The notes under the pieces are model-generated. The model saw nothing but the letters and a program-made list of their open reading frames with translations. It ran no database searches and was not told the DNA's origin. A stretch of 64,000 nucleotides of DNA from Gamarada debralockiae (Eukaryota; Ascomycota; Leotiomycetes; Helotiales; Hyphodiscaceae). Position numbers and translations under genes: made by a program. Where the stretch lies: positions 1 through 64,000 of the forward strand of contig NXFV01001840.1 of assembly GCA_002803225.1 (NCBI GenBank), written 5' to 3'. This document shows positions 37,040-64,000 of this stretch, in pieces. Within the stretch, counting starts at the first letter, position 1; every line of letters starts with the position of its first letter.

Positions 37040-38386
37040 TCATGGCGTTTGTTGTCTATTGGGTCCGTTGTGTGCGATTTTATGGCCAACATCTGAGTGA
37101 CGGTGGAATCCAAGAGGTAATCGCCGTGGTTGGAAGGACATCTTCAGACTGTGGAAACTGTCCCTGCTCTTGGACATAGAATCGGAAAAATAGCCGAGAT
37201 CCGCATTGGACGACCCTTTGGGTGCGAAGGGCTTTGGTGCAACTGTGTTTGTATCTGTTGGGCTACTCGAGTGCCTCCTGTTTGCATGGTTTGTTACTTC
37301 TGGTTGGTAGGTTGGATCGCGAGGGGAGTATGCGCCTTGCGGGGGCGATGGTTGTTGTTTGGGTGGAATAGCAGCAGCATCCAATTCCCAGTAGGCAATA
37401 ACTAGCTGTGACCAATTGGATGGGCGTTTTTCAATTTCGGAGTCGAATTGTGCGACAAGTAGATCGGCTTCAAAGTGTGAAAGAAGCATCATCTGGAGAA
37501 GCCACTTATTGATCCGAGTTCTCCTTGTGCCAAAATTCGTCGATAGTTCAGGATAGCGTTCAGTAATAGCATCGGGTCGAAGCGGAAGATCATGAGGACG
37601 CCCGACCATGTCATAGCTATCCCAGCTGCCAGGAGCATGATCAATCTCTCCAATCCCAGAATCTGAATCCCATTGAGAGAGGTAGTCTTCGCTAGGAGGT
37701 ATGTAAGCCAATCCAAGCAGAACTTGTGATGTGTCGATATCTAATGTTGCATGCATTTCTTTTCCTGAAGGCCCAAACTGGAGGCTAGATGACGATACCA
37801 CAGAGTCGGAAGGCCGAAAAGGGAGACTATCCTCCGCATCATGGCTATCCTGATCGTAATTGCTCTCAGCATCGGAGTATGAGCCGTATTGACTGGACGG
37901 GACACTCATGGGAGGCGGTGGGTACGTGTTTGCCAATTCGAACTCGTCTTTGAATTCATCGTAAAGATCTTCTTCTGTTTGTCGCAATTTCCAAATGTGG
38001 CCCTCCCATCGTTGTTCGGCTTCAATGCCCTCTTGCTCCAGAGGCCCGAGGCCATCCCGCGCAGCCTGACACTCAGCTCCGAGCCTTCGCAATTCTGCGA
38101 ATTTCTCGAGGGGTTCTTCCGCCATAAATCGTTGGACTTCTCTCATGAATGCTGCATCGCATAACCAGACCGTCTGTCTCTTGTTTCCCACTTCGCGCAT
38201 CTTCTGTCGCGCATCGATTTGTGCACTCGCCGCTTCCTTCTGCAGCCTTGCGATTCGTTGTATAGCCTGCATTAATTCCACCAAGCGAGATTTGTCCACT
38301 GCCTGCAAATTGCCGTCCATCTCCGGCCTTTCTTCAACCCCAATATCCACTGATTCCCTCTTCCCAACACTTGTATTTTCCACCAT
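37040..38386 (-). CDS. coiled-coil protein of divergent pair A
   Basis: Intronless, 448 aa, ATG at 38386. Residues about 30-145 form a coiled coil with CQAARDGLGPLEQEGIEAEQ and LRQTEEDLYDEFKDEFEL, matching the signature C-x-x-A-R-x-x-x-G-P-L-E of copies B and C. The middle is acidic and Ser/Pro-rich. At about 290 lies the shared C-terminal block: RINKWLLQMMLLSHFEADLL, VAQFDSEIE, then WSQLVIAYWELD. The tail is low complexity and basic. It lacks the second coiled-coil block found in B, C and the retropepsin protein, so it is the shortest member. It is transcribed away from the DUF6590 gene at 39328 across 941 bp. Function unknown; no signal peptide or membrane helix. Confidence 0.75.
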   Translation of the reverse strand: MVENTSVGKRESVDIGVEERPEMDGNLQAVDKSRLVELMQAIQRIARLQKEAASAQIDARQKMREVGNKRQTVWLCDAAFMREVQRFMAEEPLEKFAELRRLGAECQAARDGLGPLEQEGIEAEQRWEGHIWKLRQTEEDLYDEFKDEFELANTYPPPPMSVPSSQYGSYSDAESNYDQDSHDAEDSLPFRPSDSVVSSSSLQFGPSGKEMHATLDIDTSQVLLGLAYIPPSEDYLSQWDSDSGIGEIDHAPGSWDSYDMVGRPHDLPLRPDAITERYPELSTNFGTRRTRINKWLLQMMLLSHFEADLLVAQFDSEIEKRPSNWSQLVIAYWELDAAAIPPKQQPSPPQGAYSPRDPTYQPEVTNHANRRHSSSPTDTNTVAPKPFAPKGSSNADLGYFSDSMSKSRDSFHSLKMSFQPRRLPLGFHRHSDVGHKIAHNGPNRQQTP

Positions 38387-39327
38387 GCCACCGGCGGTAG
38401 AGTATAGGATACCCTTTCGGGATATCGGCAGGCAATGCAGGAGAAAGTGTGTGTATAGTTGACTAGACGACTTTGACAGTCAGTGCCGCGCCGCGTCGAA
38501 AAGCCTGTGCAAGCGTCAGCCAAAACACTCTAATTTCCCGCTTGCAAACACGTAGCAGTCTCTGCTAACTTGAGAACCAAATACAACTGATCTGAGTGGA
38601 AATTTCAGCTGTTGTCCAATATGCAAATTGACACACTGGATGGGTACCTGTCGGGCAGCAATGTTGCATGTTTCCGTAGCATTTCTCTGTTTGGCGCCAC
38701 CTGTCCTTCATACGTCAGATTTTAGGCCTCAGAGTAGAAAAGGTTCAGCGATACGAATTTTATTTAGTTCGAGCCGAAATATTCATCCGTGTTCAACATA
38801 CGCGACCGCGTGGGGAGCACGGGAGGACGCGTGGGCTGTGTTATACCTAGCGAGTTCAGTTTGGTGGAAGCAAGGCTCGAAAGGGAAGGAGGCCTTTTAA
38901 AGCAGCATCTATCGTAAAAAATGCGCCTCTAGATCATTAGCGTTCGTGTTTGCAACAATCACAACCCGCTGTCCTGGAGGCCAATGGTTGTTCATGGATA
39001 ATCCATATTTATTTCCATGTTGCAACCATTACAGTCGTTTCATTCCAGGGTACAAATCGGGATTCCAGACCAATTAGCCCCTCCATCATGCTAATCTAGC
39101 GGGCTATGCGCCATTCCGCTGCATAAGTCTCACTCTTTGGCATAGCGCTTGATGCTCAAAGATACTTCATCATTCTGGCTAATGGGATTCAGTCTGAGGC
39201 TCTTCGTTGAATGCGGAGTTGACGGTATGAGTACTACGCATAAATCCACAACGGATCCCGGCCTTGGGCTGCAAGCATCCGCGGCCGGTATCAAAAATGG
39301 CCTAAAAGTGCTTCAAAGCAGCCAAAC
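38387..39327. promoter_or_regulatory. divergent promoter region, pair A
   Basis: A 941-bp intergenic region between the start codons of pair A. The sequence CTTTTAAAGCAGCA near 38894-38907 resembles CTTTTAAGCCGCAAA in the pair C promoter. No other element is assigned. Confidence 0.4.
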
Positions 39328-40900
39328 ATGGCTCCTTCAACTGGTAGAGCCACGAAATGGTCAGAGAACAAGTGGGACGCCGATCGACAGCAGTGGTACA
39401 GCACTCGAAAAAACGCCAAAGGGGAGTGGGAGTACCACTACCACCCATCTGAGACAACAGCCACAACTCAAGACGACCCAACCATTCCTCGCTCTTTTGG
39501 CGAAAAGGATTCGACTGGGGCCGAAACCTCTCAACACCAAGCCTATGACTCGCAATCTGTAGCTGTTGAGAGTCTCTATGGACCAGCTGCCACAAGCCAA
39601 TATGACACTGCTGTTGCTCCTGCCGTTGGGTATGCCAGTACCTCCGGATATACCACAGCAAACGCAGCTGCAAATACAACCACAGATCCATATGATGCGC
39701 CAACATCTCCCAGTTACGCCTCTAACGCAGTCGATCCATACGACGATCAGTTCACGACAATAGAATCTACAGGTTCCACTGCGAGTTCATCCACTGCTGC
39801 TGGTTACACTGTGGCTGGGTACACTTCAACTGGGTCCGCAAGCTATGATACACCTGCAACATCTAGCTACATATCTTCCACTACGAACTATGTTTCGACG
39901 TCCCCAGACTCAATCACACATGGAATGCGAACTCTTAGCTTCACTCCGCAACCTAGGATCCCGGAGCAAGGTATGCGAGCACCTTTCTTCCGATGAAAGT
40001 TATTTTTAACTCTCTGAAGGCCAAGCAGAATCCTCAACTGCCTACCAACTACTGCAAAATGTAAAGAATATATACAAGGCCCCCAACAGTAACAATTGGG
40101 AAGAGTTGGACGAACGTAAGTCTCCTCCTGGGCAGTGGGTAAAGTTTCGCGTTTTGATTTTGGCATAGGGTACCGTGTGATTGAAGAAAAAAAGCAAAAA
40201 AAGTTTTGGAGAGTCGGCAGAGTTTTCATGATGCTCTGGACAGAGCCTGCGAGGGACACTCCACGCGTTCCCGGAGGTGGTGGCACTCGCAATGGGTCCC
40301 ACTTTAGCACTGTTTATTTGAACGCCACAGTATACAGTGAGATTCGTCGATTTGTGGTGATTGGTGTTGGGTGGGGGAATACTATCTGTTCGTAAGTTTC
40401 AATTCTCTTCGTCAACAGCCTCTTCTAACGTGCTAAGACCCATTCACACCTATTCCAACCAGGCGACGCTCAAGCCCAATCTACCCGAGCCTCAGCAGCA
40501 CGCTATAATCTATACGAGCGATACTGCGCCCGAACAGCTTTGGTACGAAGCGGAGGATGGGTCGATTGTGAGCGAAAATCTGACTAAGGATCCGATCCGA
40601 GTCAAACGGGAGCAGACTGACCCGGAAGGGGACCTTGGCACGTTGTCCCGGCTTAACTATAGTAAGATATATACTGTCGAGAACTATGTCCGAGTTCTGA
40701 ATATCGGCATGGTCCACCAAGATTCACTTGAGACACTCAATCACAACTCTTTTTTGCGGCCACGAACCGAGCTCCCCGAGAGACCGAGGAATCACCCGTC
40801 CAGGAAGGATTCCAAGGACGACCATCACAAAGGTGACAGAAAAGGAAAGGGCAAGGCAAAAGAGACGAAAGGAAGCCACTCTGGGCGGAGGCACACCTGA
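39328..40900 (+). CDS. DUF6590 protein of pair A
   Basis: Exons 39328-39970, 40020-40115, 40169-40391 and 40438-40900 give 474 aa with frame kept at all joins (donors GTATGC, GTAAGT, GTAAGT). The N-terminus carries the tryptophan motif KWSENKWDADRQQWYSTRKN followed by GEWEYHYHP. Residues 45-210 are Tyr/Thr/Ser/Ala-rich low complexity with repeated GY and SYxxxATSxY units. The DUF6590 domain (about 255-415) includes KFWRVGRVFMMLWTEPARD, SEIRRFVVIGVGWGNTICSP, IHTYSNQATL, QQHAIIYTSD and LSRLNYSKIYTVENYVRVLN. The C-terminus is a basic Lys/Arg tail (DRKGKGKAKETKG) that could serve nuclear targeting (inference). Function unknown. Confidence 0.8.
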
Positions 40901-41714
40901 GCTGCAGCAATAAGAACCACAAGTCGTGGTCAGCTGCTGGTCGGGATTGAATAATTATACGTTATGCTTCTTAAGAGGCACTGAGGGTAGAAGAGTACTC
41001 TACTCCACCTAAATTTATGTTCCATGTCTGGGGAAATAGTTCTTTTTTGGAGTTCGTTGGGAGCCACGCTCGTTGGATTGCTAATCTTGACGCTTCGGCC
41101 AAGTTGAGGCAACAAATCTCTATGGCAAATCTCACTTCTTCATAAGTAGTGTTATCTTTTGAATTATTTTCCAAACGTTGGGGCGAGCCAGTGAGAGGAC
41201 AAATAGCCGGTTGTGTTGGTACTGATTTGCAGTCGTGTGTTGATGACTTTCGAAAGCTTACATTATTGCTAATTCTGTTAATATAATGACTAAAATATAG
41301 TCCCAAAGCTATCCTACAGAAAAACCCTAAGATGACTGTGATGATGTCCTATTTGTTGGCTTGGTACAGCCAAAGAATGAGTTGAATTGTTGAGGATCTT
41401 GCGTGGCGCCCCTATTCCCATCTGCCGGCATGTAAAATGACTTTTTTGCAATTCAGGGTGCGAATATTGTTTATGGAGTGCTTAAGACCATTTTGTTTGC
41501 CTCGGGACCATAATCTTGTCGAGGCTCAGAACATAAGTTTTCAGGTACCTGACTTACCTAGATTTTGGTTCGGACCGGACGAGCCAAAAGATGAGACAGT
41601 GGAAAAACAACCCACCTGCAGTGACCTGTTTCCCTCGACATCTCTGGAGGACTCCATTATATCAATCCAATCGTTGAGTAATCTAAAGTCTATCCTAACT
41701 TATCAACAAGCCAA
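40901..41714. other. downstream flank of pair A, decayed
   Basis: No intact gene. From about 41440 on the sequence aligns, with many changes, to 51440-51650 (shared reading around VPDLPRFWF versus MSDFPQF), so this is part of the duplicated segment. Function unknown. Confidence 0.4.
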
Positions 41715-42300
41715 ATGGCAAAGTTTCCGGATATGCCACGAATCCCTCTCCCTCTACTCGCCGCCGGGAAGCCCTTAATCTTAACAACGTCACGAGTGCC
41801 GTATCGCAGTTGTATTCTCAACATCAGGAACCAAAATTCGATAAGTATAGTAGGAGCAGAATTTCTACATTTTCCCAAAATCTCTAATGACGGGAATCCG
41901 CGAATTCTCCTCAAACGAGGTCCGAGCGAGACGTATTATCCCAATCTTTCAGGAACCCAACGGCAAAGTCGATAGTACGGGTACTATAATCAAAGATGCG
42001 CTTGCGAGAGTATTGAAGGAAGAGACAAGCTTGGAAATCACTCACGTTCTTGCTCAGCTACCAGACCTCACATACAGCAGCGAAAATTAGTTTGGAAGGT
42101 TGGCAGGTAGAATGAGGTCATAGGAAAGAATTCTATTCAACCCAGCTTCGTGGTGTTTGTGGATTGCACAGAGTTTTGTGTTAGTGCGGATGAGCATTCT
42201 TGGGGCTTGTGGGCGACTAAGAAGATGTTGGCAGATCTGAACATGATGGAGGAGAGGGCAATTGTCTCTATTGAGTTACCTTTAGGGGTGCATCCACAAG
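41715..42300 (+). pseudogene. Nudix hydrolase remnant 1
   Basis: Starts MAKFPDMPRIPLPLLAAGKP. In successive frames it gives ILLKRGPSETYYPNL, then EPNGKVDSTGTIIKDALARV with LKEETSLEITHVLAQLPDLT, then QPSFVVFVDCTEFCVSADEH and SWGLWATKKMLADLNM. This is the Nudix fold order with a recognisable Nudix box (G-x(5)-E-x(7)-R-E-x-x-E-E) degraded to GKVD...ARVLKEETS, where an expected Glu is replaced by Lys and frames are shifted. Two further copies, 50605-50835 and 51787-52330, share the same sequence. Confidence 0.65.
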
Positions 42301-43875: not shown

Positions 43876-45774
43876 CTATTCACTTTTCCAATGAACTCTT
43901 GCCCTTGGGAAAGAGGGTGATTTGCTCGACGTTATCTCCTTTTCTGTGTCCTCTGAGCGATCAGAAGAGGGAGGAAATCGTGATCGATGAGCTAGAATGA
44001 AGCCATATGATTCACTGCTGTGAACTTTTGGATTAAATTTGAAAGATGTGGAGGAGTGATCTGATGGTAGAGGTGCTTGAGTCGTCATACTTGAAGTATA
44101 AATGTGATAACTCTTTGTGTTGGCCGTTCCGTCATCCCACCATACAGCAAGTACAGCTCCTTCCCATCGGTCGTCAATTTCTCCATAATCTTTCTCGAAC
44201 GTTCTTTCCAGCAAGTTGACCTCCAAGGCAGACTCTCGTAGTTGGCCTAGTATCCAGTGGTTTATCCGGCGACCGAGGCTATCTGATTTCTCATCAGATT
44301 CTGTGACCGGATATTTGGACGGGGCTAGTTTGATCCCTGGTTTTGGTAGCAATATGGGATATTTGACATACTCTGATATTTGATCATTCGTGTTCATGTC
44401 TTCTTCATCCTGGAAAGTTTTTCGCTCCTGACTTCGAAAATCTGTGGGCTCGTCGTGTTCGTCGATGAGTCCTAGTAAAAGACATTTTTCCCTCAATTGA
44501 CTCACGTCCTCTTTAGCAAGCCGTATTTTTTCAAGCAGCTCATTAAGGAGCGCCTGAGAGCCGTTTAACCAAGTTTGATCTTCGGGCGCTAAGGACCTCC
44601 CAAAGCGTTGACGGGAATCTCTTTCATCCTCCAACGATTCTTTCTCTTCTTCCAGATCAAAGAGCCGCTCCTGCAAGATATCTAGATCGCCTATTCTTGA
44701 CTGAAACTCCGTGACAAAAGGGTGTTCTTCAAGGACCTCTTCTACATCAAGGATAGTAGATGCTGCTGGCGAAGGTTGGTGGAAGGCCGCGATGACGGGG
44801 GTCGCTTGCCCAACGCTTCGGGGGCTTCTCCACCGGTTATAAAACTGCTCCTCCATTCTGGTGAGCTCAAACTCCTGCTCGCTAAGTTGGTCTTCAAGTC
44901 GATTGCAATCGTCCTCAAGCGGACCGTACTCTCCTCTAGCATTCCTGCAATCTTCCATCAACTTTTCGATAGACTTGTCCTCTCCAGCGGAAAGGTTCTT
45001 TGAAGACAATCCAAACCCTTCTATTGAGATTCGCTGGAGTAGCTTGTCATCCGCTGTCGATTTGATCCTTTGTTTCCCTCTTAGCAGGTGACGCATCTCG
45101 TGGACTCTTGACCGCAGGCTCCAACTATCAAGTCGTAACTTCTGAATTCTTTCATAGTCAACCTCGAATACAGAATCAATGTGAGTATTTTGGTGTTCCG
45201 ATCTTAATTCTAAACGCTGAGGGGGTCCGTGAGTTTCAGAGAGAATTTGCGATTCCCCCACCAAGACCTCACTCGGCGAGTTTTCCATTTCGCAAGACTC
45301 TTGACCTGTCTGTGAGTTTGTAGATGTCTGCTTGACCGATGCTGGAGGTGGTGGGATCGAAATTGGTGGGGGAATTGGAATTGGTGGTTCGATAGGTGAA
45401 GGCATACGTGGCGAGCCCTCAGCATTGGGGAGTTGTTCAGAAGGATGTTCATAGGTTTGAATGGCCGTGTCACCGTGAATACTGCAAATGCTGCAATTGC
45501 TGGCAGCAGATTCTAAACGGCTCTCCGTATCGCTGTCATGTGAAGGCCCTTCGTTATTCAAAAGGACTGATTGAGCTGCCATATTCTGAGGCATTCTGGG
45601 CATTTTATTTCTCTGTGCAGCAAAACCTCTGACATTTGAGGGATTTGAATTGATCCTTAGGTGAGTCCCTCGTGCGTTGGGGTTCCCTGAGCTTAATGTG
45701 TCCGGGAAACAGGCCATCTCCCTTCGCAAAAACCCGCCTTGATGTTGGCGACATCGTGGACGCACATAAGCCAT
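43876..45774 (-). CDS. coiled-coil protein of divergent pair B
   Basis: Intronless, 632 aa, ATG at 45774. Residues 125-160 are a Pro/Ile stretch (PIEPPIPIPPPISIPPPP). Coiled coil 1 (about 205-320) has LDSWSLRSRVHEMRHLLRGK and CRNARGEYGPLEDDCNRLED. Coiled coil 2 (about 350-455) has FQSRIGDLDILQERLFDLEE, QRFGRSLAPEDQTWL and LLGLIDEHDEPTDF. The C-terminal block (about 502-555) is RRINHWILGQLRESALEVNL, LERTFEKDYGEI, then GAVLAVWWDDG. Coiled coils 1 and 2 are close to those of the retropepsin protein at 26243-28566. Divergent with the DUF6590 gene at 46339. No enzyme motif is visible; a structural or adaptor role is a guess. Confidence 0.8.
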   Translation of the reverse strand: MAYVRPRCRQHQGGFLRREMACFPDTLSSGNPNARGTHLRINSNPSNVRGFAAQRNKMPRMPQNMAAQSVLLNNEGPSHDSDTESRLESAASNCSICSIHGDTAIQTYEHPSEQLPNAEGSPRMPSPIEPPIPIPPPISIPPPPASVKQTSTNSQTGQESCEMENSPSEVLVGESQILSETHGPPQRLELRSEHQNTHIDSVFEVDYERIQKLRLDSWSLRSRVHEMRHLLRGKQRIKSTADDKLLQRISIEGFGLSSKNLSAGEDKSIEKLMEDCRNARGEYGPLEDDCNRLEDQLSEQEFELTRMEEQFYNRWRSPRSVGQATPVIAAFHQPSPAASTILDVEEVLEEHPFVTEFQSRIGDLDILQERLFDLEEEKESLEDERDSRQRFGRSLAPEDQTWLNGSQALLNELLEKIRLAKEDVSQLREKCLLLGLIDEHDEPTDFRSQERKTFQDEEDMNTNDQISEYVKYPILLPKPGIKLAPSKYPVTESDEKSDSLGRRINHWILGQLRESALEVNLLERTFEKDYGEIDDRWEGAVLAVWWDDGTANTKSYHIYTSSMTTQAPLPSDHSSTSFKFNPKVHSSESYGFILAHRSRFPPSSDRSEDTEKEITSSKSPSFPRARVHWKSE

Positions 45775-46338: not shown

Positions 46339-47836
46339 ATGTCTCATCGAGGCACCAAAGAAAAGCCATCAAGAAGGTCTGGAGGTAGCGGCGGGTCTCA
46401 ATACCCCACGAGGTGGAGTGAATGGGCATGGAACGCTGAGCACCAGTGCGAGGTTCGATACCGCTTAATTGCACCTGGTAAGTGCTTGAACTATTGGTGT
46501 CTGATAGCACGAGAACCGCATAAGAGTATCTCTAAAATTTGATAGATGAGTACGATTACGAATATGGCCCTGTCCAAAGACCAGAAGTGCCCAGAACCGC
46601 TTCTGATGTCCTGAGCCCAATTCCGGAACAACAATATTCTTCACAAATCAACTATACCACAGCTTCAGTGGAAACAATTACGAGAAATTTAGCCGGAACT
46701 TCAATAGTTTCAAGTACAAGTCAGCAACCGCAAGTTTCCCAGGCGTATACGGCGCCGACATCATCGGAATTTCAAGCCCACATAGCTACACGAAACCCTA
46801 ATACGTTCTCCGAGAAGTTTGATCCCCGTACGCATTTGCCTTGCGTAGATGATTAATAGCTAACTTGTAGCAGATTATAAAGTGCATCATGGCAATGAAT
46901 TTCAATGGGGCAAAGTACTGTTTCTAGTTCCTTATTTTTGTAAAATCTTAGAAAATGTTGCTGACAAGAAGTATTAGGTTTTTAAAATCCTCTGGGCTGA
47001 GCCTAAAGGCAACCCTGGAAGCAACACTAGTGATAGCACGTGGTCTGAAAGAAGTGGTAAACACGGAGAGAAGTTCTACGAGAAGGTTCGTCGATTTGTG
47101 ATAATCGATCGAAGGCAAGGCCACTGTATTTGTCTGTAGGTTTATGAACCCTCCGTTTGCGAGATAGGAAGTTACTAAACAAGACACGAGGCCAATCATG
47201 ACTTACACCGGGCAAGGGACAAATAAAAATGGGGTACAAGCTCAGGACCACACCATCATATACACCGAAAGACCTGTTTTATTTAAAGGTGAATATGAGA
47301 AGGGATTAACGAAGAAGCCAATCAGAGTCCTTCCAAGTAGTAAACGGCACAAACTTGACGAGACAAGTCGCCTTAACTACGCAAAGCTATACACCATTGA
47401 ATACAATGTCAAAGTGTGGTTTATCGGCAAAATCCACCCTGACTCGGAGTACCAGTTGACAACGGACTACAACGTGGTTCATCCCCTTATACCGATTCGG
47501 GGTGTCCCTCCATCTTCGGAAGACACGTATGCGTACGCCGGGGGCGCTACAGATACATACCAGGCTCCATACTCTACTTATGCAGCACCAGCTACCTCCT
47601 ACTCAACTACAACTACAAGCTATCCTGCAATTGCAGGTAGTTCGGCGTATCGAGACAATACGACGGCCAGTCCATATTCAACCTCCGAGTACACGGCCTC
47701 GACAGCGGCATACTCGAGCGCTCGAACGGATCCCGTTTATGAGACCGGAGGATATGAGGCCTCGTATAATCCTTCCTATCAGGCTAGGGACCAACCACCA
47801 AATCCATATGACCAGGAAGAATACTATGACGAGTGA
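46339..47836 (+). CDS. DUF6590 protein of pair B
   Basis: Exons 46339-46477, 46546-46827, 46871-46914, 46978-47135 and 47191-47836 give 422 aa. Exon 3 may instead start at 46874, since TAGCAG offers two acceptors three bases apart. The N-terminal motif is TRWSEWAWNAEHQCEVRYRL followed by DEYDYEYG. The DUF6590 domain (about 155-325) includes FQWGKVFKILWAEPKGN, EKVRRFVIIDRRQGHCICLP, IMTYTGQGTNKNG, QDHTIIYTERP, KKPIRVLPSS and LDETSRLNYAKLYTIEYNVK. The C-terminal 110 residues are Tyr/Ser/Thr/Ala-rich low complexity (TYAAPATSYSTTTTSYPAIA). In pair A the Tyr-rich part lies before the domain instead. Splice sites fit fungal consensus, with a CTAAAC branch before exon 5. Confidence 0.8.
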
Positions 47837-50604: not shown

Positions 50605-51169
50605 TCTAATTGGCGAAGTTGCTTGATGCACCACGAATCCCTCTTATCCCAGACTTAGGAGTGAAAATCTTTATTCTTGCAATGTCACGAGAACGATACC
50701 ACAAACACAATCCAACATTAAGAGCCAGTTGCTTCAAAACAACCCCGAAACCAATAATCTACGAATTCTCCTCCTCAAATAAAGTCCGAGAGACAAATTG
50801 CACTAGTTTGTTTGAGATCCCCAGCGGCAAGGGTGCCAGACCCAAGATGGCGCCATCTTCAAAGAAAATCTCTCCAAAGATCCAATCAAGGTTATCTGCG
50901 AGCAGCGAGGGCCAGAGGGAGATTTTGGCACTCGCTCACGAATTAATTATAGTGAGGTTTACACAGTTGAGAACTATGTTCGGGTTCTCGACATTGGAAT
51001 GGTCTCAGACGAACCAATGGAGGTCCTTGCTCGAAATTCCTTCCTCAAACCGCGCGAAACGCTGACTGAGCGGCCTAGACACATCCCGAGGCGAACGAGT
51101 TCTCACCAAGATGACAATAGAGACAAGGGAAAGGGAAGAGAGAAGGATAGTGGGAGGAAGCGCCGTTGA
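50605..51169 (+). pseudogene. chimeric remnant: Nudix 5' part joined to DUF6590 3' part
   Basis: 50605-50835 aligns with Nudix remnant 1 (MAKLLDAPRIPLIPDLGVKI; IYEFSSSNKV; FEIPSGK). Directly after, another frame runs through the DUF6590 C-terminus: DGAIFKENLSKDPIKVICEQ, GTRSRINYSEVYTVENYVRV, LDIGMVSDEPMEVLARNSFL, ending in a basic DDNRDKGKGREKDSGRKRR tail and TGA at 51167-51169. That tail is closest to pair A. The missing halves of both genes and the abrupt join show a recombination junction near 50835. Confidence 0.7.
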
Positions 51170-51780: not shown

Positions 51781-51786
51781 TCCAAC

Positions 51787-53815: not shown

Positions 53816-55738
53816 TTAAATGCTCTGGGAAAACTTTGACCCGGGGATTGGTGGTGGGAGCTGCCGCTCAAACTGCTCCTTCGATTCGGTAGATTCAATG
53901 GATTCAAGAGACTCAGATCCAGAGCTGGGATGCAACAGGGAACTCCTAATTGCAATACTAAAAGAGTAGCTTTCTCTTGCGTCCAAAGGTGACCTTGTTG
54001 AGTGCTGAGACCGTCCTGGTGCTTGCGTTGCGACCCCAGAGGAATAGACGCGGTATTCAGATGCTCCTTTTCGTGCTCCGTCTTTGTACCAGAACGCCAG
54101 TACGTCAGATTGCCACTTTTTATCTTCGATATGCCCGTAATCTCCCTCAAAAGTTCTTGCGAGCAAATTGACATCTAGTGGGGAAGATCGTAGCTGGTGA
54201 AGTAGCCACTGGTTTATATGGTCACCCGCACTATGAGTCGTCTCCCCAACGTTGGGACCTGAGTTGGAGAATCGTACTTCCGTCCGCCCAGGGAGTGGGA
54301 GAAGCACCGGGAACTTCACAAACTCAGATCGCTCTGCTCCGGCATCCACTTCTGGGGCTTCTTCGATGAAAGTTTGTCGCTCTTGTTTCTCGAAGTCCGT
54401 AGGATTGCCGTCTTCATCCACCAGCCCTCGGTCGAGGCAAAGATGCTTCAATCTCTCCGCCTCTGCTTTCGCTTCATTGATTTCATTCAGCAAGCTGGCT
54501 TCAAGATTGTCATAGTCGTCCAGCCACTCCTGATCATCTGGGGCCAGATCCAGACCCACCCGCAATCGGGCCTCTTTCTCAAAGTCCAAACGAAATTTCT
54601 CCTCTATATGGTAGTCCAGACGCTCCTTCAAGATATCCACATCTCCTAACTGAGAAAGGTATTTAGATACTAGAGGATGAGACTCCTGACCGACCTCGGA
54701 TTCGCTATACGTAGAGGCCTCGTGCGAATCCGTCACAGGACTTGTTTGCTCTTGCTGAAATGTCTCGGGAGCACTCTGTCGTTTGTAGAAATTTTCCTCT
54801 AGTTTGGTGAGCTCAAACTCGTCTCTCCCAAGTGCGTCTTCCAGGAGATTGCAATCATCTTCCAGCGGCCCGTATTCATCTCTAGCCTTTTGACAATCAT
54901 CCAACAGTTCTGCCATGGACTTTTGCTGCTTTGATATGTCCTGATTCTCTAGCGTTATACCAAGGCCCCACATCCTGACATATTGAAAATATCTGTCATC
55001 AGCCGTTGACCTCTCTTGTTGCTTTTCCCTTAAAACTTTCCGCAACTCGTGGATCTTTGTTCTTAGACTCCAAGTTCCAGCCCGACGCTTTTTGATCTTC
55101 TGCCACTCTCTATCCAGTGATAGTCGAACTTGTCTCGGCCTATCATCTAGTCCCGCCTCCCACGTCCTTGAGGCTGGAACTGTGTTTGATGGGCCTGGCC
55201 CAGGTCCCGGTCCCGGTCCCCGTTCCGAAGGGTGTAATTCGAAAGCAAATTTTTGACTGCCCATTTGAGAATTTTCGTGGTATGAGCCCTCTCTGACAGT
55301 GACAGAATTTTGGTCGAAAGTTGCTGGAGGTTGAAGGATAGAGATTTTCGATTGCAGTTGCACCGCAGGAGGGGGTCCACGTGGCGCAAGTCGAGGAGCG
55401 TCGGAGTTCTCCAAAAAAGCTCTATAGTCGCTTTTGGTTTCATTTCCCGAGTCCAACGTTGTCACAGGTTCCAAAAGACTCTTGAGATGGTCCTTGTCTT
55501 TATCTGATCGAAAAGAAGGATCGAGGGACGGATTAAAAGAGCGCCCCGTAGGCCCTCCGCCACCATCATATAGCCCGAGCACTGGATGTGGGGAAGGCAG
55601 AGATTCAGGTTGGAATCGATGATGCTTCAGTGGAAAGTCTGTGTGGTTCAGATTCAAGGTCCCAGGATGCGTGCTTGCTTCGTGTTGGTACCCGCCATCG
55701 TGGCGCTCTGAAATCCAGGCCATAGGAGCGGTGAGCAT
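53816..55738 (-). CDS. coiled-coil protein of divergent pair C
   Basis: Intronless, 640 aa, ATG at 55738. A Gly-Pro repeat GPGPGPGPGP sits at about residue 180. Coiled coil 1 (about 215-330) has AGTWSLRTKIHELRKVLREK, CQKARDEYGPLEDDCNLLED and FELTKLEENFYKR. Coiled coil 2 (about 355-470) has YLSQLGDVDILKERLDYHIE, VGLDLAPDDQEWLDDYDNLE and DRGLVDEDGNPTDFEKQERQ. The C-terminal block (about 505-560) is DHINQWLLHQLRSSPLDVNL, LARTFEGDYGHI, then SDVLAFWYKDG. It is closest to pair B and shares its whole layout. Divergent with the DUF6590 gene at 56350. Function unknown. Confidence 0.8.
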   Translation of the reverse strand: MLTAPMAWISERHDGGYQHEASTHPGTLNLNHTDFPLKHHRFQPESLPSPHPVLGLYDGGGGPTGRSFNPSLDPSFRSDKDKDHLKSLLEPVTTLDSGNETKSDYRAFLENSDAPRLAPRGPPPAVQLQSKISILQPPATFDQNSVTVREGSYHENSQMGSQKFAFELHPSERGPGPGPGPGPSNTVPASRTWEAGLDDRPRQVRLSLDREWQKIKKRRAGTWSLRTKIHELRKVLREKQQERSTADDRYFQYVRMWGLGITLENQDISKQQKSMAELLDDCQKARDEYGPLEDDCNLLEDALGRDEFELTKLEENFYKRQSAPETFQQEQTSPVTDSHEASTYSESEVGQESHPLVSKYLSQLGDVDILKERLDYHIEEKFRLDFEKEARLRVGLDLAPDDQEWLDDYDNLEASLLNEINEAKAEAERLKHLCLDRGLVDEDGNPTDFEKQERQTFIEEAPEVDAGAERSEFVKFPVLLPLPGRTEVRFSNSGPNVGETTHSAGDHINQWLLHQLRSSPLDVNLLARTFEGDYGHIEDKKWQSDVLAFWYKDGARKGASEYRVYSSGVATQAPGRSQHSTRSPLDARESYSFSIAIRSSLLHPSSGSESLESIESTESKEQFERQLPPPIPGSKFSQSI

Positions 55739-56349
55739 CGATATTCCTGCTTATGTAGCTCCGGGATGAAGGTTTGGACATTAGGATGATATGGATCGAC
55801 ATGAGCACAGGAAAGCTGGCAGTTGGTGTCGAATGAACGGAATGAGGTCTCGTGAGGCAGACGAGCGATCACACGAAAATCCACCGTGTCAGGTCTCGGG
55901 CTGAGCCTCACTTTTGACGCGCCCGTTACGGACACCGTATTCGGTCCTTTCCTCAGAGTTTGCGCTCTCAAAACAGCCCAGAGTTTTTGCCTCCCAAGGC
56001 GTTAAAAGCAGCGAGACGGGTGGGTCCGATAAAATAGCCATACCAAGAACCCCCTGCTAATACTACGGTGAACTGGAGGACATCCCTATCTTTGGCGCCT
56101 GCAAGCACACTGATGCGTAAGTAATTCCGCTATCATACCCAATCATTGGCTGAGCTTTTCATCTCACATGTGGAGCTTTATCGACAATCACTTTAAAGCT
56201 GCATTTGAGCGTGTGAACGTTGTGGAAGTCTGCAACCACCTTTTAAGCCGCAAAGAAACCCTTCTGTGGATAAAATAGGCGGGTGTTGCGCATCCTCACC
56301 CCCTTCAGAGAATGCCAAACTCTCTGAAGTCAATCCGCGAAAAGCGGAT
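55739..56349. promoter_or_regulatory. divergent promoter region, pair C
   Basis: A 611-bp region shared by pair C. It contains GGCGCCTGCAA, GTGTGAACGTTGTGGA and CTTTTAAGCCGCAAA in the same order as the pair B promoter. Confidence 0.5.
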
Positions 56350-58261
56350 ATGGCTTCCTCCCGTCGACATCGGTCAAGAGGGAATCATCCTCCTCCCATT
56401 GAATTCCCCACTGCGTGGAGCGAATGGCAATGGAATGACACATACCAACGATATTATCGATTCCGTAAAGTAGGAGAGACAGGTGTAGCAAGTAAGTGCC
56501 TGATATTTCTATACATAACTATTCCTGACTCTGTAGATGATGATTGGGAGTACCAATATCGCGACGTTGAAGCTCCTCGGGACCAGGATGGCGACCCCGC
56601 AGCCACTGTGGCTTTAGCCGCTATCTCCGGATCTGCGGAGACACATGATGAAGTCGCAGAAGAATATACAGAAGAGCCGAGCTACACAATAGATCCTCCT
56701 GATTCTGCTGTTGCAGGCCTGGTTGGATCATTTAGTCGGGCGACTTTGTCTGGTGGAGGAGAGACACAGGCACCGCAATACTCTGTTGCGTTCGGGCTAA
56801 GAGAAGAGAGAATCGGCAGCTTTAGCAGAGGTATTTGAATTATGTTTTTGCTTATTGCTTTTCTGTACGGATTTTTCCGAGGTCTAATTAATGGCTCTTT
56901 TAGGAGGACTTAATGACTTAAATGTCCGAGGGGACGAATCTCATGTCGACCGTCGTATTACGCCCCAACATCCTTCTACAACTCTTGATCCTTGTAAGAA
57001 TACTCTCAGTAACTCCTCCTATCAACTCAAATTCTAATGTGCAATAGCTTTCAAGATTCGGCCAAGTTCTGACTTTGTATTTGGGAGGGCAAGTCATACC
57101 ATTCCTATCCTGGCGATTCAACGGTCACGACTAACTCATTGGAGGTTTTCAAAGTTCTTTGGTCAGAACCAACTGGCAGTGGTGGGACTGAGATAACCCG
57201 TTCTATTAGGGGTTATCGGAAAGCAAAGTTTGGGGAGCAAGCATATGACTCGATTCGTCGATTTGTCGTTGTTGATGATAGGAAACCTGGCCATTGTATT
57301 TGCTTGTAAATCCCCTGTTGTCATCCTTTAGCCTCATCACACTTTTGCTAATCTGAAAAAAAGGCCTATCTTGACTTATGGAGGACAAGGAACTATGAAA
57401 AGGGGAGTTCATTCCGAGAGTCACGCCGCTATTTTTACAGGCAGAGGCGCTGTTATGAAGCCGGGCGAAAAATTGACCAAGAAGTCTGTCAGAATGATCC
57501 CTGATTCAGAGCGCCACAAACTTGACCCTGCCTCACGTATCAACTATGCTAAGGTTTATACTGTTGAGCATAATGTCAAGGTGAGTTTTATAGGAAGAAT
57601 TGCTCAAAAGTATGAGCAGCAAGTCACGACGGACTACAACGACACCCACGGCCTATTGCCTGATCGACCAACTTATGCCGGAGACGTCGCTGAGAATGTT
57701 TTTGACTATGCTGAGGGTGCAAATCCGCAATATCCAACTCAGGATGTCGCAGCGACATCCTGGCAAACAGCACAAACGCAAGATTACAACGCTTATTATG
57801 CATCCACTACAACAGAATCCTCATACGGTATCTACGCGACGTCAAACTGGTCAACAAACCAGAATTTGCAGCCCTCATCCACGTATACTCCCTCGGCATA
57901 CCATATCCCAGCTAGCACAACGTCAGTTACGTACTCGGTTCCATACACTCAAAGTTCGATATATCAGACTCCGTCAACTGTGGCGGAGCCTGGGGCCTAT
58001 GACACAACTCCAACATATGGCCATCACTCAGGAGAGGTGGGAGAAGCAGAATATGGCGCAAGTAATGAAGGGGAGGCAAAGTCATACACTGAAAGTTCGT
58101 TATATCAGACTCCGTCAACTGTGGCGGAGCCCGGGGCCTATGACACAACTCCAACATATGACCATCACTCAGGAGAGGTGGGAGGAGCAGAATATGCTGC
58201 AAGTGATGAAGGGAAGGCAAAGCCTGAAGATTTTGATCCCAATTATGATGTTTCTGACTGA
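56350..58261 (+). CDS. DUF6590 protein of pair C
   Basis: Exons 56350-56491, 56537-56830, 56904-56993, 57048-57088, 57145-57305 and 57364-58261 give 541 aa in frame. The intron 57089-57144 is of GC-AG type: AGG|GCAAGT donor, CTAAC branch, GGAG acceptor. It is the only split that joins FVFGR to VFKVLWSEP as in the family. The N-terminal motif is TAWSEWQWNDTYQRYYRFRK with DDWEYQYRD. The DUF6590 domain (about 175-330) includes SIRRFVVVDDRKPGHCICLP, ILTYGGQGTMKRG, ESHAAIFTGRG and PASRINYAKVYTVEHNVKVS. The C-terminus is Tyr/Ser/Thr-rich and ends with a 47-residue tandem duplication (SSIYQTPSTVAEPGAYDTTP and its copy). Confidence 0.8.
57942..58223 (+). repeat. 141-bp in-frame tandem duplication
   Basis: Two adjacent copies of 141 bp (47 codons) at 57942-58082 and 58083-58223, differing at only a few bases, inside the last exon of the pair C DUF6590 gene. 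The high identity shows the duplication is recent. Confidence 0.85.
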
Positions 58262-59944
58262 GTAAGTCAAGTAAGAGCTCTATCTTCCTACCTCTAAAGA
58301 CCTAAAGCTCACAGACCTTATAGAATGCTTGGTCGATACGTTAAGTCACGCTGCAACGCTGACTATCTCGCCATCTGTGATGGCACAAATGCAAGGCGTG
58401 CGGCTGATTTCAGCCCGCCTATGATGATGAATCATGATTCTCCTTTCTTTGGGCGGAGTTTGCCTTTGAATTGGGTGTTGATGTGGTGCGTTGTTGCTTT
58501 GGAAGATGCCACGAATCGACAGTGAAATGGCAGAATGCCCAGTCTCCTTCAATCATTCATTTTTGTATCGATTTTGTTGGGGAAACCATACTATGAGTCC
58601 TTGCTCTTGACATTAATGGACAACAATTGATCATTGGCCAACAATACGAGCGCATATAAGTGAGAATGAGTCTCGCATTGAAACCCGCTTTCAGCGTCAA
58701 TTATGCTCCCAGCCCCGGACCAACGCAGAGAGCCACTCACCATGAGCCACATCGCCCCTTCCAAAAATGGTCACAATAAGAGCAGCAAGGGCTCGGTACT
58801 ACCCAAGAGGGCTAATCAGAATCAGGCAATATTTGTGTCCCGAAATAAACTCAGAACCGTAATCTCGAAACACAGTTGGCAAGGCTGTAAATCTACGCCC
58901 CCTGCACTTGCATATCGATTCCTCCGATCTCAGGGGTATCGAATGATTTTCACAGCTCATATCACTCCGAAACCTGCAGATACGACTTCATAAATTCCGA
59001 CCCTATCCTAGCGGTGTGGGTGGTGTAGTTACACAGACTCGTCTCAGCAAGGGGCACGCATGCTAGAATTTAGCCCCGACGAGGCTGTAGCTTTTGCCGA
59101 GAAAGTTTGCCCAAGGAACGCCCTGCTTACTTTTCATATAAGGTCATTGATACGATTGATGGCCGAAGGGAATGCCGCTGGGCCCAGTTATTAGGATTCC
59201 ATGGCTTCGTCGAGCGACGCGGATTGAAGAATCCCTTACAGGTTCTATGACGACTTCGTCGCTCTATCATTTGTAGCAAGGTATTTTCCAGAGAAAACCC
59301 TACTGATTTATCCTAGCCAAATTAAAGTGTTACTTTTACCTCACGAAACGCATTGAGAATCTCTACATAGATCTCATCTTGGCAGTCATAACAGCTTCCA
59401 CTTGGAATAGCTAGAAATAGAATATACTAGCAATACAACGTACAATTACCATCGAGGGAAAACACAAAGGGTTAAAAGGAACCCAAGAAGAAAGACAAGT
59501 AAATAGATAACCAATACGTGGCTTCAAAGATGGCTAGAGTCCGATGACCGAGAACACAGCCTGACTGTCACTGCCGGTGCAAAACATCCCGTATGGACGA
59601 TGAGACAAAACTTTTACCAGATATTTGGGTTTAACCACTATCTATGAGTGATATTCCTCAGCCAACAAAAGAGCAGTCCATCGTATGTGCACTGCAAAGT
59701 CTAGATACCTGTCCAGAAACACCGTCCTTGCCTCTGTCTACGCGATCCTGAGCCCAATCCAGAATCGACGTGAAAAGCTGCTGGCTTGCCAGCGCTTAAG
59801 CTCATTACTCATGAAGTTAGCCTGCACCAGAAAGGTGATCAAGAAGAGAACAACCAGCCCTTAACACCTTGCTACACGCAAGCCCATTCCCCAAAACACA
59901 TCAAAAAAATATTTGTACAAGCCAGAGAGACGAGCAGCGCGTAA
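58262..59944. other. no supported gene
   Basis: Short frames only. 58985-59050 resembles 48781-48845. A reading MLEFSPDEAVAFAEKVCPRN (about 59060-59120) could be an old coding scrap, family unknown. Confidence 0.4.
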
Positions 59945-61717
59945 TCATATACTGACTGCTCTCGACACACTTGCTGTCCTGTTGCGCACAGCAAGTCCTT
60001 GCTCAGTACGAGTCTCTTTAGGCCCCTCGTCATTTGTGGTTGGCGTCCCGCTGTCCCCCTTTTGTGTCCTGTATGACCCGACCTCGCTTTCCGTGATTTC
60101 TATCTCGACTCTTTCGCTATTCCCAGGACTAACATCCGAACTCCCTTCTGATTCTCCACTGTTGCTAGTGACTCCCAGTAACGCGTCCATTGTACTTAAA
60201 ACATGTTTCTCTTGCGTCTCTTCGCCAGCATGATCTCTATCCCACCATCCAAGCACCAGTGTTGGCCACTCCTCGCCTTCAAGTTCCTTCCCATCTTTCT
60301 CATATTCGAGGACGATGAAAGTTCTTAACCTTAGCGTTTCGACAGGCGAGTCTTGTAACAGCTCCAGCATCCATTTATTCACATAATCCCGCTTGTCCGT
60401 GAAGTTGGTTTCGTGCGGCCAATAGGAAGGCGTATGATCTGCTGCGTTGCGCAAAGGTGAGCGATCCAAGGCGTCATTGACGGATTCGTATATTTCTTCT
60501 ACTAGCGCATCACGAGGCTCGTAGGCGTATTCTGATGCGGTGAAAAGGCCTTGGTCAATGCAGCGGTCGCGTAGGTCGTAGAGGTCATCCTCGACGCGTT
60601 GGAGAGTTTCGACGAGTTTTTTGTACACCTCTGGAAATTCGAACATGAAGGCAGTCTTTTCCTCCGACAGTTTCAGTTTGTACCGCGAGCGGAAGGTAAG
60701 TTCCTCTGTAAGGCTGTATTGTTCATTCTCTAGCTCATAGATTTCTTCTTTGAGGTGCTCTGCTTCTGTGACCTTTCCTAGATATTGTTTCACGAGCTCA
60801 TTCTCAAGGTCGAGGTTTTGGAACCCAACGTCTTCAGGTTGGTACGGCTGAACAAGGGGAGTCAATGGGGCGTCCAACTTGGCATCCGGCAGCTGGGTTA
60901 AGGTGATGTTGTTATGGGTGTAAAAGTGCATCTCCTCCTGCTCGAGTTCCTCTTCCTCATGATTAAGTCGGATTTCCAGGCCGTCGTATGCATCTTCAGC
61001 GGGGCCCAACTCGTCTTGAGCCTTTCGAGTTGCTTGATAATACGGGGCGAGGCTCTGAAGATTCTGAACATTGTCGCGTACCATTATCTCGTCAATTGCC
61101 CTCATAAGATTCGCAGTCGCATCCCGTAACTTCTCCCGAAGAAACTGTACGTCTTGTCTGCTCTCGTTCAATATACGTCGCGTCCGCAGAGCCCTTCCAC
61201 GCAATATTTCAACTCGCTCCCGAGCTCGTATGTTCCTTGCCTGAATGTCGATATCCACTTTTGATTCTTCATCTTGATACCCTCTTATTGACTCGTATGC
61301 CGAGTCTTGTCGATTTGGGCTTGTAGTGTTGTTTAGGCTGTGGAGGGGCGGCGAGGAGCGGAAGGCATCTACTGGTCGAATTCGAGGCGTTCTATCGTGA
61401 TTTGTGCTTCCGTGGTAGCTATCAGCTGGAGAGCTACGCATAGTAGCAGATTCATCCTCCAAGATAGAATTTTTATGCCCATGTCGGTGGGATCTTGGTG
61501 TGATATGGCCAGCCTCGTTAGAGCTTGCCGTTGATAGCAGTGTGAGCGCCTCCGTGGACGCTTGTCTTATCTCGTTCTCGAATTCGTTCCCTTCCGCAAA
61601 TCGAGCGCTCTCTGGTTCTCTGGATTTCGAATATTCAGACCACAATAACGGGGAAATTTTGTTGTGTTTTGGCGGCAAGGTTTGAGTGGCCGTCGAGCGT
61701 GGACTTCCATTTGCCAT
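59945..61717 (-). CDS. coiled-coil protein of divergent pair D
   Basis: Intronless, 590 aa, ATG at 61717. Residues about 155-290 are a long coiled coil: RARERVEILRGRALRTRRIL, FLREKLRDATANLMRAIDEI, then YQATRKAQDELGPAEDAYDG and EEEELEQEEMHFYTHN, which matches the C-x-x-A-R...G-P-L-E...F-Y signature with changes. Coiled coil 2 (about 310-395) has YLGKVTEAEHLKEEIYELEN and DLYDLRDRCIDQGLFTAS. The C-terminal block (about 440-500) is DYVNKWMLELLQDSPVETLR, LRTFIVLEYEKD, then WPTLVLGWWDRDHA. It is the most diverged of the four. Divergent with the DUF6590 gene at 62734. Confidence 0.8.
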   Translation of the reverse strand: MANGSPRSTATQTLPPKHNKISPLLWSEYSKSREPESARFAEGNEFENEIRQASTEALTLLSTASSNEAGHITPRSHRHGHKNSILEDESATMRSSPADSYHGSTNHDRTPRIRPVDAFRSSPPLHSLNNTTSPNRQDSAYESIRGYQDEESKVDIDIQARNIRARERVEILRGRALRTRRILNESRQDVQFLREKLRDATANLMRAIDEIMVRDNVQNLQSLAPYYQATRKAQDELGPAEDAYDGLEIRLNHEEEELEQEEMHFYTHNNITLTQLPDAKLDAPLTPLVQPYQPEDVGFQNLDLENELVKQYLGKVTEAEHLKEEIYELENEQYSLTEELTFRSRYKLKLSEEKTAFMFEFPEVYKKLVETLQRVEDDLYDLRDRCIDQGLFTASEYAYEPRDALVEEIYESVNDALDRSPLRNAADHTPSYWPHETNFTDKRDYVNKWMLELLQDSPVETLRLRTFIVLEYEKDGKELEGEEWPTLVLGWWDRDHAGEETQEKHVLSTMDALLGVTSNSGESEGSSDVSPGNSERVEIEITESEVGSYRTQKGDSGTPTTNDEGPKETRTEQGLAVRNRTASVSRAVSI

Positions 61718-62733
61718 GAACAGAGGGTAGCGTTCCTCATCGGACCTGACGGAATCTCAGGCAAAATGGAAGAGTGTCTCGTAGCACCGACTATAAGTGG
61801 AAGATATTCGTTGGATTGAAACCTTTCTGTAGGGACTTTGCGAGTGGTGCTTCTGAATGTAAGGCTTACGAACAACGCGAGGAGCCCGATACGGGGAGAT
61901 GAGGCCACGCGCAATCATGCACATATGAGGCTCTGCTGATTTCCTTTTTCGGCTGTCATTACGCTAGCAGCAGTAGAGAGAAGCACATATTGGTGTTATT
62001 AGTGGTGGGATTGTGTGGCTTTTAACCTCGTCTGCACAGGCCAAGCTGTATGGTTGCTCAAGGCTGGCCCGTAAAACATCCTTGCATGGTACTGTACTGT
62101 ATCCCCAGCTATATGCAACGCAACTAAACGAGGTCGCGGGAAGACGCGACATCCACTTCCATTGGGCGCAAAGTAGACATTACAAGTGCCGGATTCCAGG
62201 AATTTCGATATAGGCGCACCTTCTGTTTCCTTCAGGTCAGCATAGGGGCGTTTGAATGCTTCGAACCGTATTTGCGTTGAAACTTAGTTTACCTATCATT
62301 TCAAACGCATGTAGTTGCCAGGCGTCAACTTTATCCGCAATCCAGCAAGTGGCGCCGCTTCTGCCTCCATCCCAACAGGGAACAGAGCATGTGACTCGGA
62401 GGGCCTATCAGCTATCTGCTTGTCGCAACACTCTGCTGCACCTCAGCCGTCTGGGACGTTTCATGCATCACACAAACATGAAGCACCACATTGGCGGCAC
62501 AACGAAGACACTCTCCCCGCCATTGTTCCCCCCAAAGGCGTCTGACACGTGTTGACCCCCTCACCCAGATCCGCGACCCCACTTCAAAAGCATTGCACAT
62601 TGCTCATGTGGCAGAGCCTCAATGCCCTGCACCCACACTTTCTCGGCCGGAAGATGGATAAAGAGTCAAGGCTGGGAGGCGTGTTCGCCTGTCACTCGCT
62701 CGTCAGTGGAGACATCGCGTCCCCTCAGTGCAG
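61718..62733. promoter_or_regulatory. divergent promoter region, pair D
   Basis: A 1016-bp region between the start codons of pair D. Several frames cross it without recognisable content. I do not see the motif order shared by pairs B and C. Confidence 0.4.
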
Positions 62734-64000
62734 ATGTCTGATGAGGTTTGGTACAAAGACCCCAAGACTGGGGAGCTCTACCAGGACAGGAAAGAAAGTA
62801 CGTTGTGCTACATAATGTATAGCATTACCATGTATCTTGGGTTACTGATTGGCTCCCACAGGAGGGAAGACTGTACGGTACTACATCAAAGACCCGCGTG
62901 AATCATCGACGAATAGGGGAGAGCTGTGAGTTTATATTCATCGCCGCCCTCCAATTGTATTTAACATAGCATTGTAGGTCCTCTAGTCGACGGGATCAAC
63001 CACCTCGTCGGTCCCAAAGAGATTCTGCCACCATCGATAACAAATCAGCCAGCAGATCCCATACTCAACGCGGCACATCCTCAAAAAGAGAAGCCTCAAT
63101 TCGCCCCGAAGATGGAGGAAGGAGGGTCGAACGTGGCGGGGCTACATACATAAGCGACAATCGTGGTTATGGCCGACAGGACGAGTCATCGGGCGCTTAT
63201 GGAGACCGGCAGACCCATAGCTCCTACCGCGACGTGGAAAGGGCTTATCATCCGTCGGGAGGGTACAACCCGCAGCAAGGGTATGCGGCTCCAATTACCA
63301 AGGACCCGGAGGATGATTTAGTGGGGGAGATGCAAAATCTATCCACGCATGACCATTACACACTGGAGCCCATTGCTTCATCACTTCCGGCCGCGACGGG
63401 GTACAATGAAGCGGCTTATGAAACAAACCAGCTAGATTCCACTCCTGCCGACTATGGACAACCCCCTATCGCCTCACCAACGTTTCCTCCTCCACAAACC
63501 GTTCCGCTCTCGCGACAAATCAAGGGCACTCCAGGAGAAAGCGAGAAGCTTGACAAGAGCTACCAGGTACGAAACCATGATTACAAAAGATTTTTCAGGA
63601 TTGGGAGAGTATTCAGTACCCTGTGGACTGAGGGCGTTGGAAACAATATCGAGAATATGGACCAGACCTTTGTGAGTGAGATAGTCTACAAAGAAAGGGT
63701 CCATTCCAAGGTCCGTCGTTTTGTCGTTGTTCGGGAGGGTGACAGGTCGGTCACATGCCTCCCTGTTACCTCTTATGATGGTGCTGGGCATAGAAAGCGT
63801 GGAATTCGATTGGAGGATCATGGCTTCATCCACAGCAAACACGCACCGAGAAGAGTTGAACATATGCTCTCGAAGTCGCTGAAGGTCATACTGTCCAAAG
63901 GTGCTGCACATATCAAGGACCCTTCTTTAGTCAATTATGGGAAGGTTTATACAGTCGAGACGAACGTCAAAGTCAAAGATATCGGCGATTTAGACGCCGA
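62734..64000 (+). CDS. DUF6590 protein of pair D (runs off the window)
   Basis: Exons 62734-62797, 62862-62925 and 62978 to the window end; the 3' end is missing. The protein begins MSDEVWYKDPKTGELYQDRK with KTVRYYIKDPRE, an altered version of the N-terminal Trp/Tyr motif. A charged, Ser/Arg/Tyr-rich linker follows. The DUF6590 domain starts near residue 240: DYKRFFRIGRVFSTLWTEGV, SKVRRFVVVREGDRSVTCLP, VTSYDGAGHRK and DPSLVNYGKVYTVETNVKVK. No intron interrupts the domain, whereas copies A, B and C all have a phase-2 intron right before the P of the C-x-x-P junction. Like its partner, it is the most diverged of the four. Confidence 0.75.

Follow-up and report, generated by a model that had tools for sequence, protein, structure and literature searches.

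A tandemly repeated divergent gene pair with a DUF6590 member in the helotialean fungus Gamarada debralockiae

Introduction

Is a gene pair that recurs four times in one array, always head-to-head and in the same order, a chance neighbourhood, an inherited linkage or a partnership of its products? The question is raised by the first 64,000 bases (the window) of an 82,923-base contig of Gamarada debralockiae (C948; GenBank NXFV01001840.1), from an assembly of 54.3 Mb in 1,112 contigs. Each pair consists of a gene of a family called 'coiled-coil' in an earlier note on this DNA, here termed the first family, and a gene with the DUF6590 domain (PF20233). With a conserved partner in the genome, the two orphan families pose a single question, namely whether their products bind, and the tandem array provides natural cognate and non-cognate combinations for specificity. 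The analysis described here indicates that the pair is very probably co-inherited and not a chance neighbourhood.

Four head-to-head pairs in one array and a fifth elsewhere

In all four pairs of the window (A-D) a single-exon first-family gene on the minus strand lies head-to-head with a spliced DUF6590 gene on the plus strand. The earlier note had described four intronless minus-strand genes, each with a divergent DUF6590 gene; this was confirmed, and the minus-strand open reading frames (ORFs) are open from ATG to stop. The DUF6590 gene models are predictions built from splice consensus and protein alignment. The genes and the regions between them are as follows.

37040..38386, minus strand: first-family gene of pair A, single exon, 448 amino acids; 1e-10 with a family profile lacking A, and 2.7e-9 for its C-terminal module with a profile lacking A
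38387..39327, no strand: divergent intergenic region of pair A, 941 bp
39328..40900, plus strand: predicted DUF6590 gene of pair A, four exons (39328-39970, 40020-40115, 40169-40391, 40438-40900); PF20233 at 4.3e-25 in the last-exon ORF
43876..45774, minus strand: first-family gene of pair B, single exon, 632 amino acids
45775..46338, no strand: divergent intergenic region of pair B, 564 bp
46339..47836, plus strand: predicted DUF6590 gene of pair B, five exons; PF20233 at 8.5e-27 in the last-exon ORF
53816..55738, minus strand: first-family gene of pair C, single exon, 640 amino acids; 42% identity to B, 1.6e-95
55739..56349, no strand: divergent intergenic region of pair C, 611 bp
56350..58261, plus strand: predicted DUF6590 gene of pair C, six exons, one GC-AG intron (57089-57144); PF20233 at 7.8e-24 in the last-exon ORF
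59945..61717, minus strand: first-family gene of pair D, single exon, 590 amino acids; 1.8e-27 with a profile lacking D
61718..62733, no strand: divergent intergenic region of pair D, 1016 bp
62734..64000 in the window, plus strand: predicted DUF6590 gene of pair D, three exons, ending at contig position 64889; PF20233 at 4e-40 in the in-window part

The DUF6590 genes of A-D match PF20233 at 84.8 to 137.7 bits, above the curated cut-off of 27 bits. Order and orientation are constant across A-D, as had been claimed, and a separate contig (C1051) adds a fifth pair, with the first-family gene on the minus strand, the DUF6590 gene on the plus strand from locus position 6817 and a gap of 604 bp. 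By simple arithmetic (17 loci in 54.3 Mb), the probability that a given gene has a divergent DUF6590 start no farther than about 1 kb away is about 2e-4. Because of this probability and of the fifth pair on a separate contig, chance is not a realistic account of the pairing.

Linkage beyond the genome

First-family searches returned at least 29 distinct public proteins. Eight carry species names, all from Helotiales (Lachnellula, Hymenoscyphus, Tricladium, Hyaloscypha, Cudoniella, Halenospora, Hyphodiscus and Leptodontidium), and these represent seven families, Leptodontidium being placed at genus level. With the five spliced DUF6590 proteins as queries, at least 36 matches were listed among 7,998 candidates. 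In Lachnellula willkommii the consecutive tags LAWI1_G001880 (DUF6590) and LAWI1_G001881 (first family) are both on contigs of 31,578 bases. Two further public proteins, P0008 and P0031, one of each family, are both on ENA contigs of 309,393 bases and were taken to share one contig by equal size. The same-contig call outside the genome rests on equal size, together with the consecutive tags for L. willkommii, and adjacency is read without orientation. The two families, whose neighbourhood elsewhere had been proposed as a test, are thus linked in L. willkommii and probably on the 309,393-base ENA contig. Among the DUF6590 matches listed, which are too few to call absence of linkage in other species, consecutive tags were seen for 1/8 species-named first-family hits and equal-size contigs for one further pair. 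Viral contigs searched for the first family and prokaryote contigs searched for DUF6590 held no relatives.

Parallel divergence of the two families

Patristic distances in the two families were compared for seven pairs: A-D, C1051, the L. willkommii pair (LAWI) and the ENA pair (ENA309). They correlate at r = 0.93, with 11/5,040 relabellings as high, the true one included. The correlation is 0.91 when A and D are left out (1/120, the true labelling itself) and 0.89 for the five pairs of this genome alone (7/120, a weak result). When the 945 seven-taxon topologies are ranked, the DUF6590 optimum comes 27th on the first-family data, and that of the first family 55th on the DUF6590 data. The approximately unbiased (AU) test rejects neither best tree on the data of the other family (0.156 and 0.152), while some other measures mark the foreign tree down. 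Resolution is low, with 137 topologies (first-family data) and 328 (DUF6590 data) not rejected by AU; both optima hold ((B, ENA309), LAWI), with bootstrap values of 63/30 and 80/29. The first-family tree was built without member E, a fusion gene of the window treated below, and sequences covering half or fewer of the columns were set to drop. For the DUF6590 tree the limit was 70 columns, below which sequences were set to drop, and the tree excludes the array's two partial copies, the C884 fragment lying near 30 kb, and this genome's loci on C465 and C1093.

The congruence test suggested in the earlier note thus gave no sign of incongruence at this resolution. Its statement that the pairing is kept despite deep divergence also held, and it extends to C1051, away from the array, and beyond this genome. 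Its remark that D is far from the others was correct for D but not for D alone, A being very divergent too; for A and D alike, identity to their relatives is only about 21-28%.

These results bear on a first alternative, that of linkage without partnership. Ancestral head-to-head neighbours with a shared promoter may have been duplicated in tandem, breakage being costly or never having happened, while the functions of the two genes are unrelated. Congruent trees are expected from linkage by itself, unpaired and DUF6590-only copies occur, and no motif is common to both families; conservation of gene order in divergent pairs is also a general eukaryotic theme, as far as the available part of PMC2871058 shows. 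On the other hand, the linkage outlasts the divergence of A and D, occurring on two contigs of this genome and also in two or more sequences from elsewhere, and 0/5 full-length first-family genes are without a partner (the fusion gene E is without). Linkage alone is a serious possibility that we would nevertheless place below probable.

The first family

A, B, C, D and the C1051 gene form one family in a profile search of 2,041 ORFs, D being recovered at 1.8e-27, A at 1e-10 and C1051 at 6.3e-75. The profile comprised 21 sequences (B, C, E and 18 public proteins), with A, D and C1051 left out. Searches of the genome with three single first-family proteins gave six clear places (A-D, C1051 and member E) and weak matches on C805 (0.09, a gene with the C-terminal module) and C564 (E-value 0.365); more distant members could be missed by such queries. 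All full-length first-family genes found in the genome have a DUF6590 partner (5/5).

No Pfam family covers the first-family proteins, and the comparison with solved structures gave five matches at E-values of 0.52-0.98, none significant, with GCN4 and TRIM56 among them at 0.75-0.98. The 'coiled coil' label is weakly supported by the sequences. Heptad periodicity is marginal for A, where 3 of 200 shuffles reach the observed value, but not above shuffles for B, C and D (28, 103 and 54 of 200). The firmest mark of the family, shared by A-D and C1051, is a module of roughly 55 residues near the C-terminus. One public member, P0006, carries the misleading bacterial name YmcA regulator.

The module is also found in an ORF on C805 (3.5e-8 among 3,663 ORFs), and the back-search from this ORF returned, besides itself, only C, A and B (1.8e-4 to 0.03). 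C805 was rejected as a sixth pair, since it has the C-terminal module alone and no DUF6590 match. At this place (L029 3348-4261) an ORF that is finger-like by eye, with two C2H2-like patterns, precedes the ORF with the module; the two are assumed, not established, to be one gene. About 2.2 kb away, opposite-strand ORFs read caspase-like by eye.

DUF6590 genes with and without a partner

The genome holds at least 25 DUF6590 matches, which group into at least 17 loci: at least six on C948, four on C884 and one each on C446, C769, C1051, C1048, C111, C465 and C1093. The six on C948 comprise the four of pairs A-D and, near 50.8-51.0 and 67.2-67.7 kb, two partial copies. The plus-strand genes of the array are thus members of the DUF6590 family, and the partnered ones are a subset: among the matches listed, 5/17 loci are paired and 12/17 are without a first-family partner, two of the latter being the partial copies. 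In the tree, the DUF6590 sequence of A groups with the unpaired C769. Copies on C884, C769 and C1048 lack a partner, and DUF6590 genes can therefore live alone. The pair can break; DUF6590 genes exist partnerless, and the reverse is seen here only for the fusion gene E.

The two partial copies, beside which no first-family remnant was detected, are located as follows.

50819..51043, plus strand: partial A-like DUF6590 copy, C-terminal domain part only, 59% identity over 75 amino acids, apparently decayed
L014 3155-3677, behind the array: second partial DUF6590 copy, D-like, in pieces in two frames, apparently decayed

Repeat-induced point mutation was considered as the cause of decay and dropped, as no 1-kb stretch of the contig passes both chosen index limits.

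Tandem copies and partial remnants might be left by a selfish or toxin-antidote two-gene element that multiplied in tandem and then decayed, and the restriction of the first family to Helotiales, among the named matches listed, would agree with it. However, the long intact first-family frames in named species of seven Helotiales families are unlike a recent selfish element, and both partial copies show DUF6590 only. We regard this origin as very unlikely.

Relation to known two-gene systems

In the part of PMC3321046 available, nwd2 and het-S are adjacent genes, divergent in Podospora and neighbours in all species analysed, with an orientation that varies between species. The present pair is similar in that two adjacent, divergent genes are kept as neighbours. 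It differs in that orientation is the same in 5/5 pairs of this genome, and in that no STAND/NACHT match (Pfam, E-values up to 1), no HeLo and no homologous motif joining the products was found. At het-B, to judge from the accessible part of PMC10890737, a HET-domain gene and a PII-like gene are adjacent, and about 5% of PII-like homologues are paired. Here also two unlike families adjoin and one of them is only partly paired (5/17 DUF6590 loci, among the matches listed), but no HET domain was found. With conserved divergent pairs and bidirectional promoters, as treated in the available portion of PMC2871058, the present pair shares the head-to-head layout, with gaps of 0.56-1.02 kb; unlike the ordinary ones, it stands four times in one tandem array, and both its families are uncharacterised.

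The literature search found no paper containing DUF6590 or PF20233, no reported function for either family, no divergent coiled-coil/DUF pair in fungi and no Helotiales head-to-head tandem cluster. Because adjacent fungal two-gene systems exist but the search gave none like this one, the pair is undescribed while its general kind is already known. In the earlier note no described two-gene system of this type was known. That is right for this pair, which was not found described, and too broad for the type, since divergent adjacent fungal pairs are known (PMC3321046, in the part available).

Could the pair be a recognition/effector system of the kind suggested in the earlier note, for allorecognition or xenorecognition, one product sensing and the other executing, with copies that differ in specificity? 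Its tandem, strongly diverged copies and partial remnants would be in keeping with this, as would the fusion of member E to protease domains and the fungal precedents of adjacent two-gene recognition systems, some of them divergent (PMC3321046 and PMC10890737, each as far as available). Against it, no HET, NACHT or HeLo match to Pfam was obtained in the 10, 9 and 10 ORFs or proteins scanned (E-values up to 1, 0.1 and 0.01), and the two families share no motif. The contig also bears housekeeping genes, for example those for inositol-pentakisphosphate 2-kinase and SYF2, and the scanned parts have no telomere repeats. A subtelomeric array was rejected on the same scan, in which neither the window nor the final 8.9 kb of the contig showed a TTAGGG double repeat (64001-74000 not scanned). 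A recognition pair is therefore considered unlikely.

A broader proposal would make the pair an undescribed fungal two-component system of recognition or regulation, in which each tandem copy is its own matched scaffold-DUF6590 couple, insulated, and the array a set of parallel specificities. A strict matched set is opposed by the ten unpaired DUF6590 loci, by the nearness of D's DUF6590 to an unpaired C884 gene and by the DUF6590-only copy on C1048, and the proposal appears improbable.

A possible joint role of the two products

In the explanation that we prefer, tandem duplication would have multiplied the pair as a unit, and the gap of 0.6-1.0 kb would act as a shared promoter giving matched expression of both genes. 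The two proteins would act jointly as subunits of a regulatory complex linked to DNA or chromatin, with the nucleus as the most likely site. The first-family protein may serve as the scaffold, its C-terminal module being used for docking, and the DUF6590 protein would supply a folded domain for binding and long, flexible tails rich in Ser/Thr/Tyr. The copies of the pair would later have diverged to give parallel complexes. The DUF6590 flanks are in fact rich in Ser, Thr, Tyr, Gln, Asn, Gly, Pro and Ala combined, the tails reaching 16% Tyr (B) and 29% Ser/Thr.

A functional partnership of the two products is, on balance, somewhat favoured. The nuclear mechanism is doubtful and is held at low confidence because the zinc-finger matches are all below the Pfam cut-offs. 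Among DUF6590 proteins, P0044 matches zf-C2H2 at 4e-4 (21.1 bits, cut-off 25.2), and weak C2H2 matches are present in P0024 (0.13) and P0027 (0.11). For the finger-like segment of C1048 the best Pfam match is zf-C2H2_fungi at 0.0098 (15.7 bits, cut-off 27). P0027 and P0035 are named C2H2-type by their sources. Taken as a whole, the statement of an ancient co-inherited divergent Helotiales pair whose products act together, most likely in a nuclear regulatory complex, is tentative and falls somewhat short of an even chance.

Several results weigh against this explanation. Congruent trees follow from co-inheritance alone and do not imply interaction. No motif common to first-family and DUF6590 products was found, the best BLASTP E-value being 0.38 (for the non-cognate B and C) and the profile-profile probability 0.1%. 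An intergenic motif common to all five gaps is at background: one 7-mer occurs in 5/5, and 200 random draws gave 0.21 such 7-mers on average and 3 at most. Among the DUF6590 matches listed, those of Cudoniella and Halenospora are on contigs whose sizes differ from those of the first-family contigs of the same species. Ten DUF6590 loci outside the array have no first-family gene in the surrounding sequence examined. The DUF6590 domain of D finds its nearest match in an unpaired C884 gene, at 68% identity across 178 residues. C1048 bears a DUF6590 copy of the C1051 type, beside which no first-family gene was found; the DNA of the two is 73% identical across 1,378 bp, a stretch that takes in the 3' flank. 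Member E, the sixth first-family member, has no DUF6590 neighbour. As to zinc fingers, all C2H2 matches in DUF6590 proteins are below the curated Pfam cut-offs, P0035 and P0045 have no C2H2 match at E-values up to 5, and the finger-like C805 ORF has no Pfam match at E-values up to 1.

A shared promoter motif had separately been tried as a candidate and was dropped, 7- to 9-mers among the five gaps being at background.

Member E and its neighbour

The remaining first-family gene of the window and the gene divergent from it are listed below; like the two partial DUF6590 copies, this sixth family member did not figure in the observation of the earlier note.

26692..28581, minus strand: member E, a B/C-type head followed by a Cys-rich stretch and two retropepsin-like aspartyl protease domains; 9.2e-46 to B; putative start
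29295..30319, plus strand: DUF6594 gene, head-to-head with member E where a DUF6590 gene usually stands; limits taken solely from ORF and exon matches

The Pfam matches of member E are Asp_protease_2 (2.2e-8) and gag-asp_proteas (2.7e-6). By eye its Cys-rich stretch is ZZ-like, and the DUF6594 neighbour looks like an exchanged partner. DUF6594 has 111 matches in the genome; in many of them the matched stretch contains stops, which can be due to introns, and the literature search found no paper naming it.

Further features of the DUF6590 genes

Comparison of DUF6590 with solved structures gave no match up to an E-value of 10. An SRA fold was considered and set aside, with one weak match (0.039) in 1/35 members. 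An N-terminal W..W.W / YY motif precedes the low-complexity region in the DUF6590 genes of A, B, C and C1051, and D has at most a distant form of it. We take this motif to resemble a WW domain faintly; it has no Pfam match. In the C1048 DUF6590 gene (L016 4841-6930) two N-terminal tryptophan motifs flank the weakly C2H2-like segment, and the gene looks like a fusion of two gene types. A non-canonical GC-AG intron is modelled at the same site in C (57089-57144), C1051 (L015 7955-8009) and C1048 (L016 6337-6387), where B has GT-AG. The low-complexity tail of the DUF6590 gene of C contains a 140-bp tandem repeat (57942-58222, 94% identical), a sign of recent tail growth.

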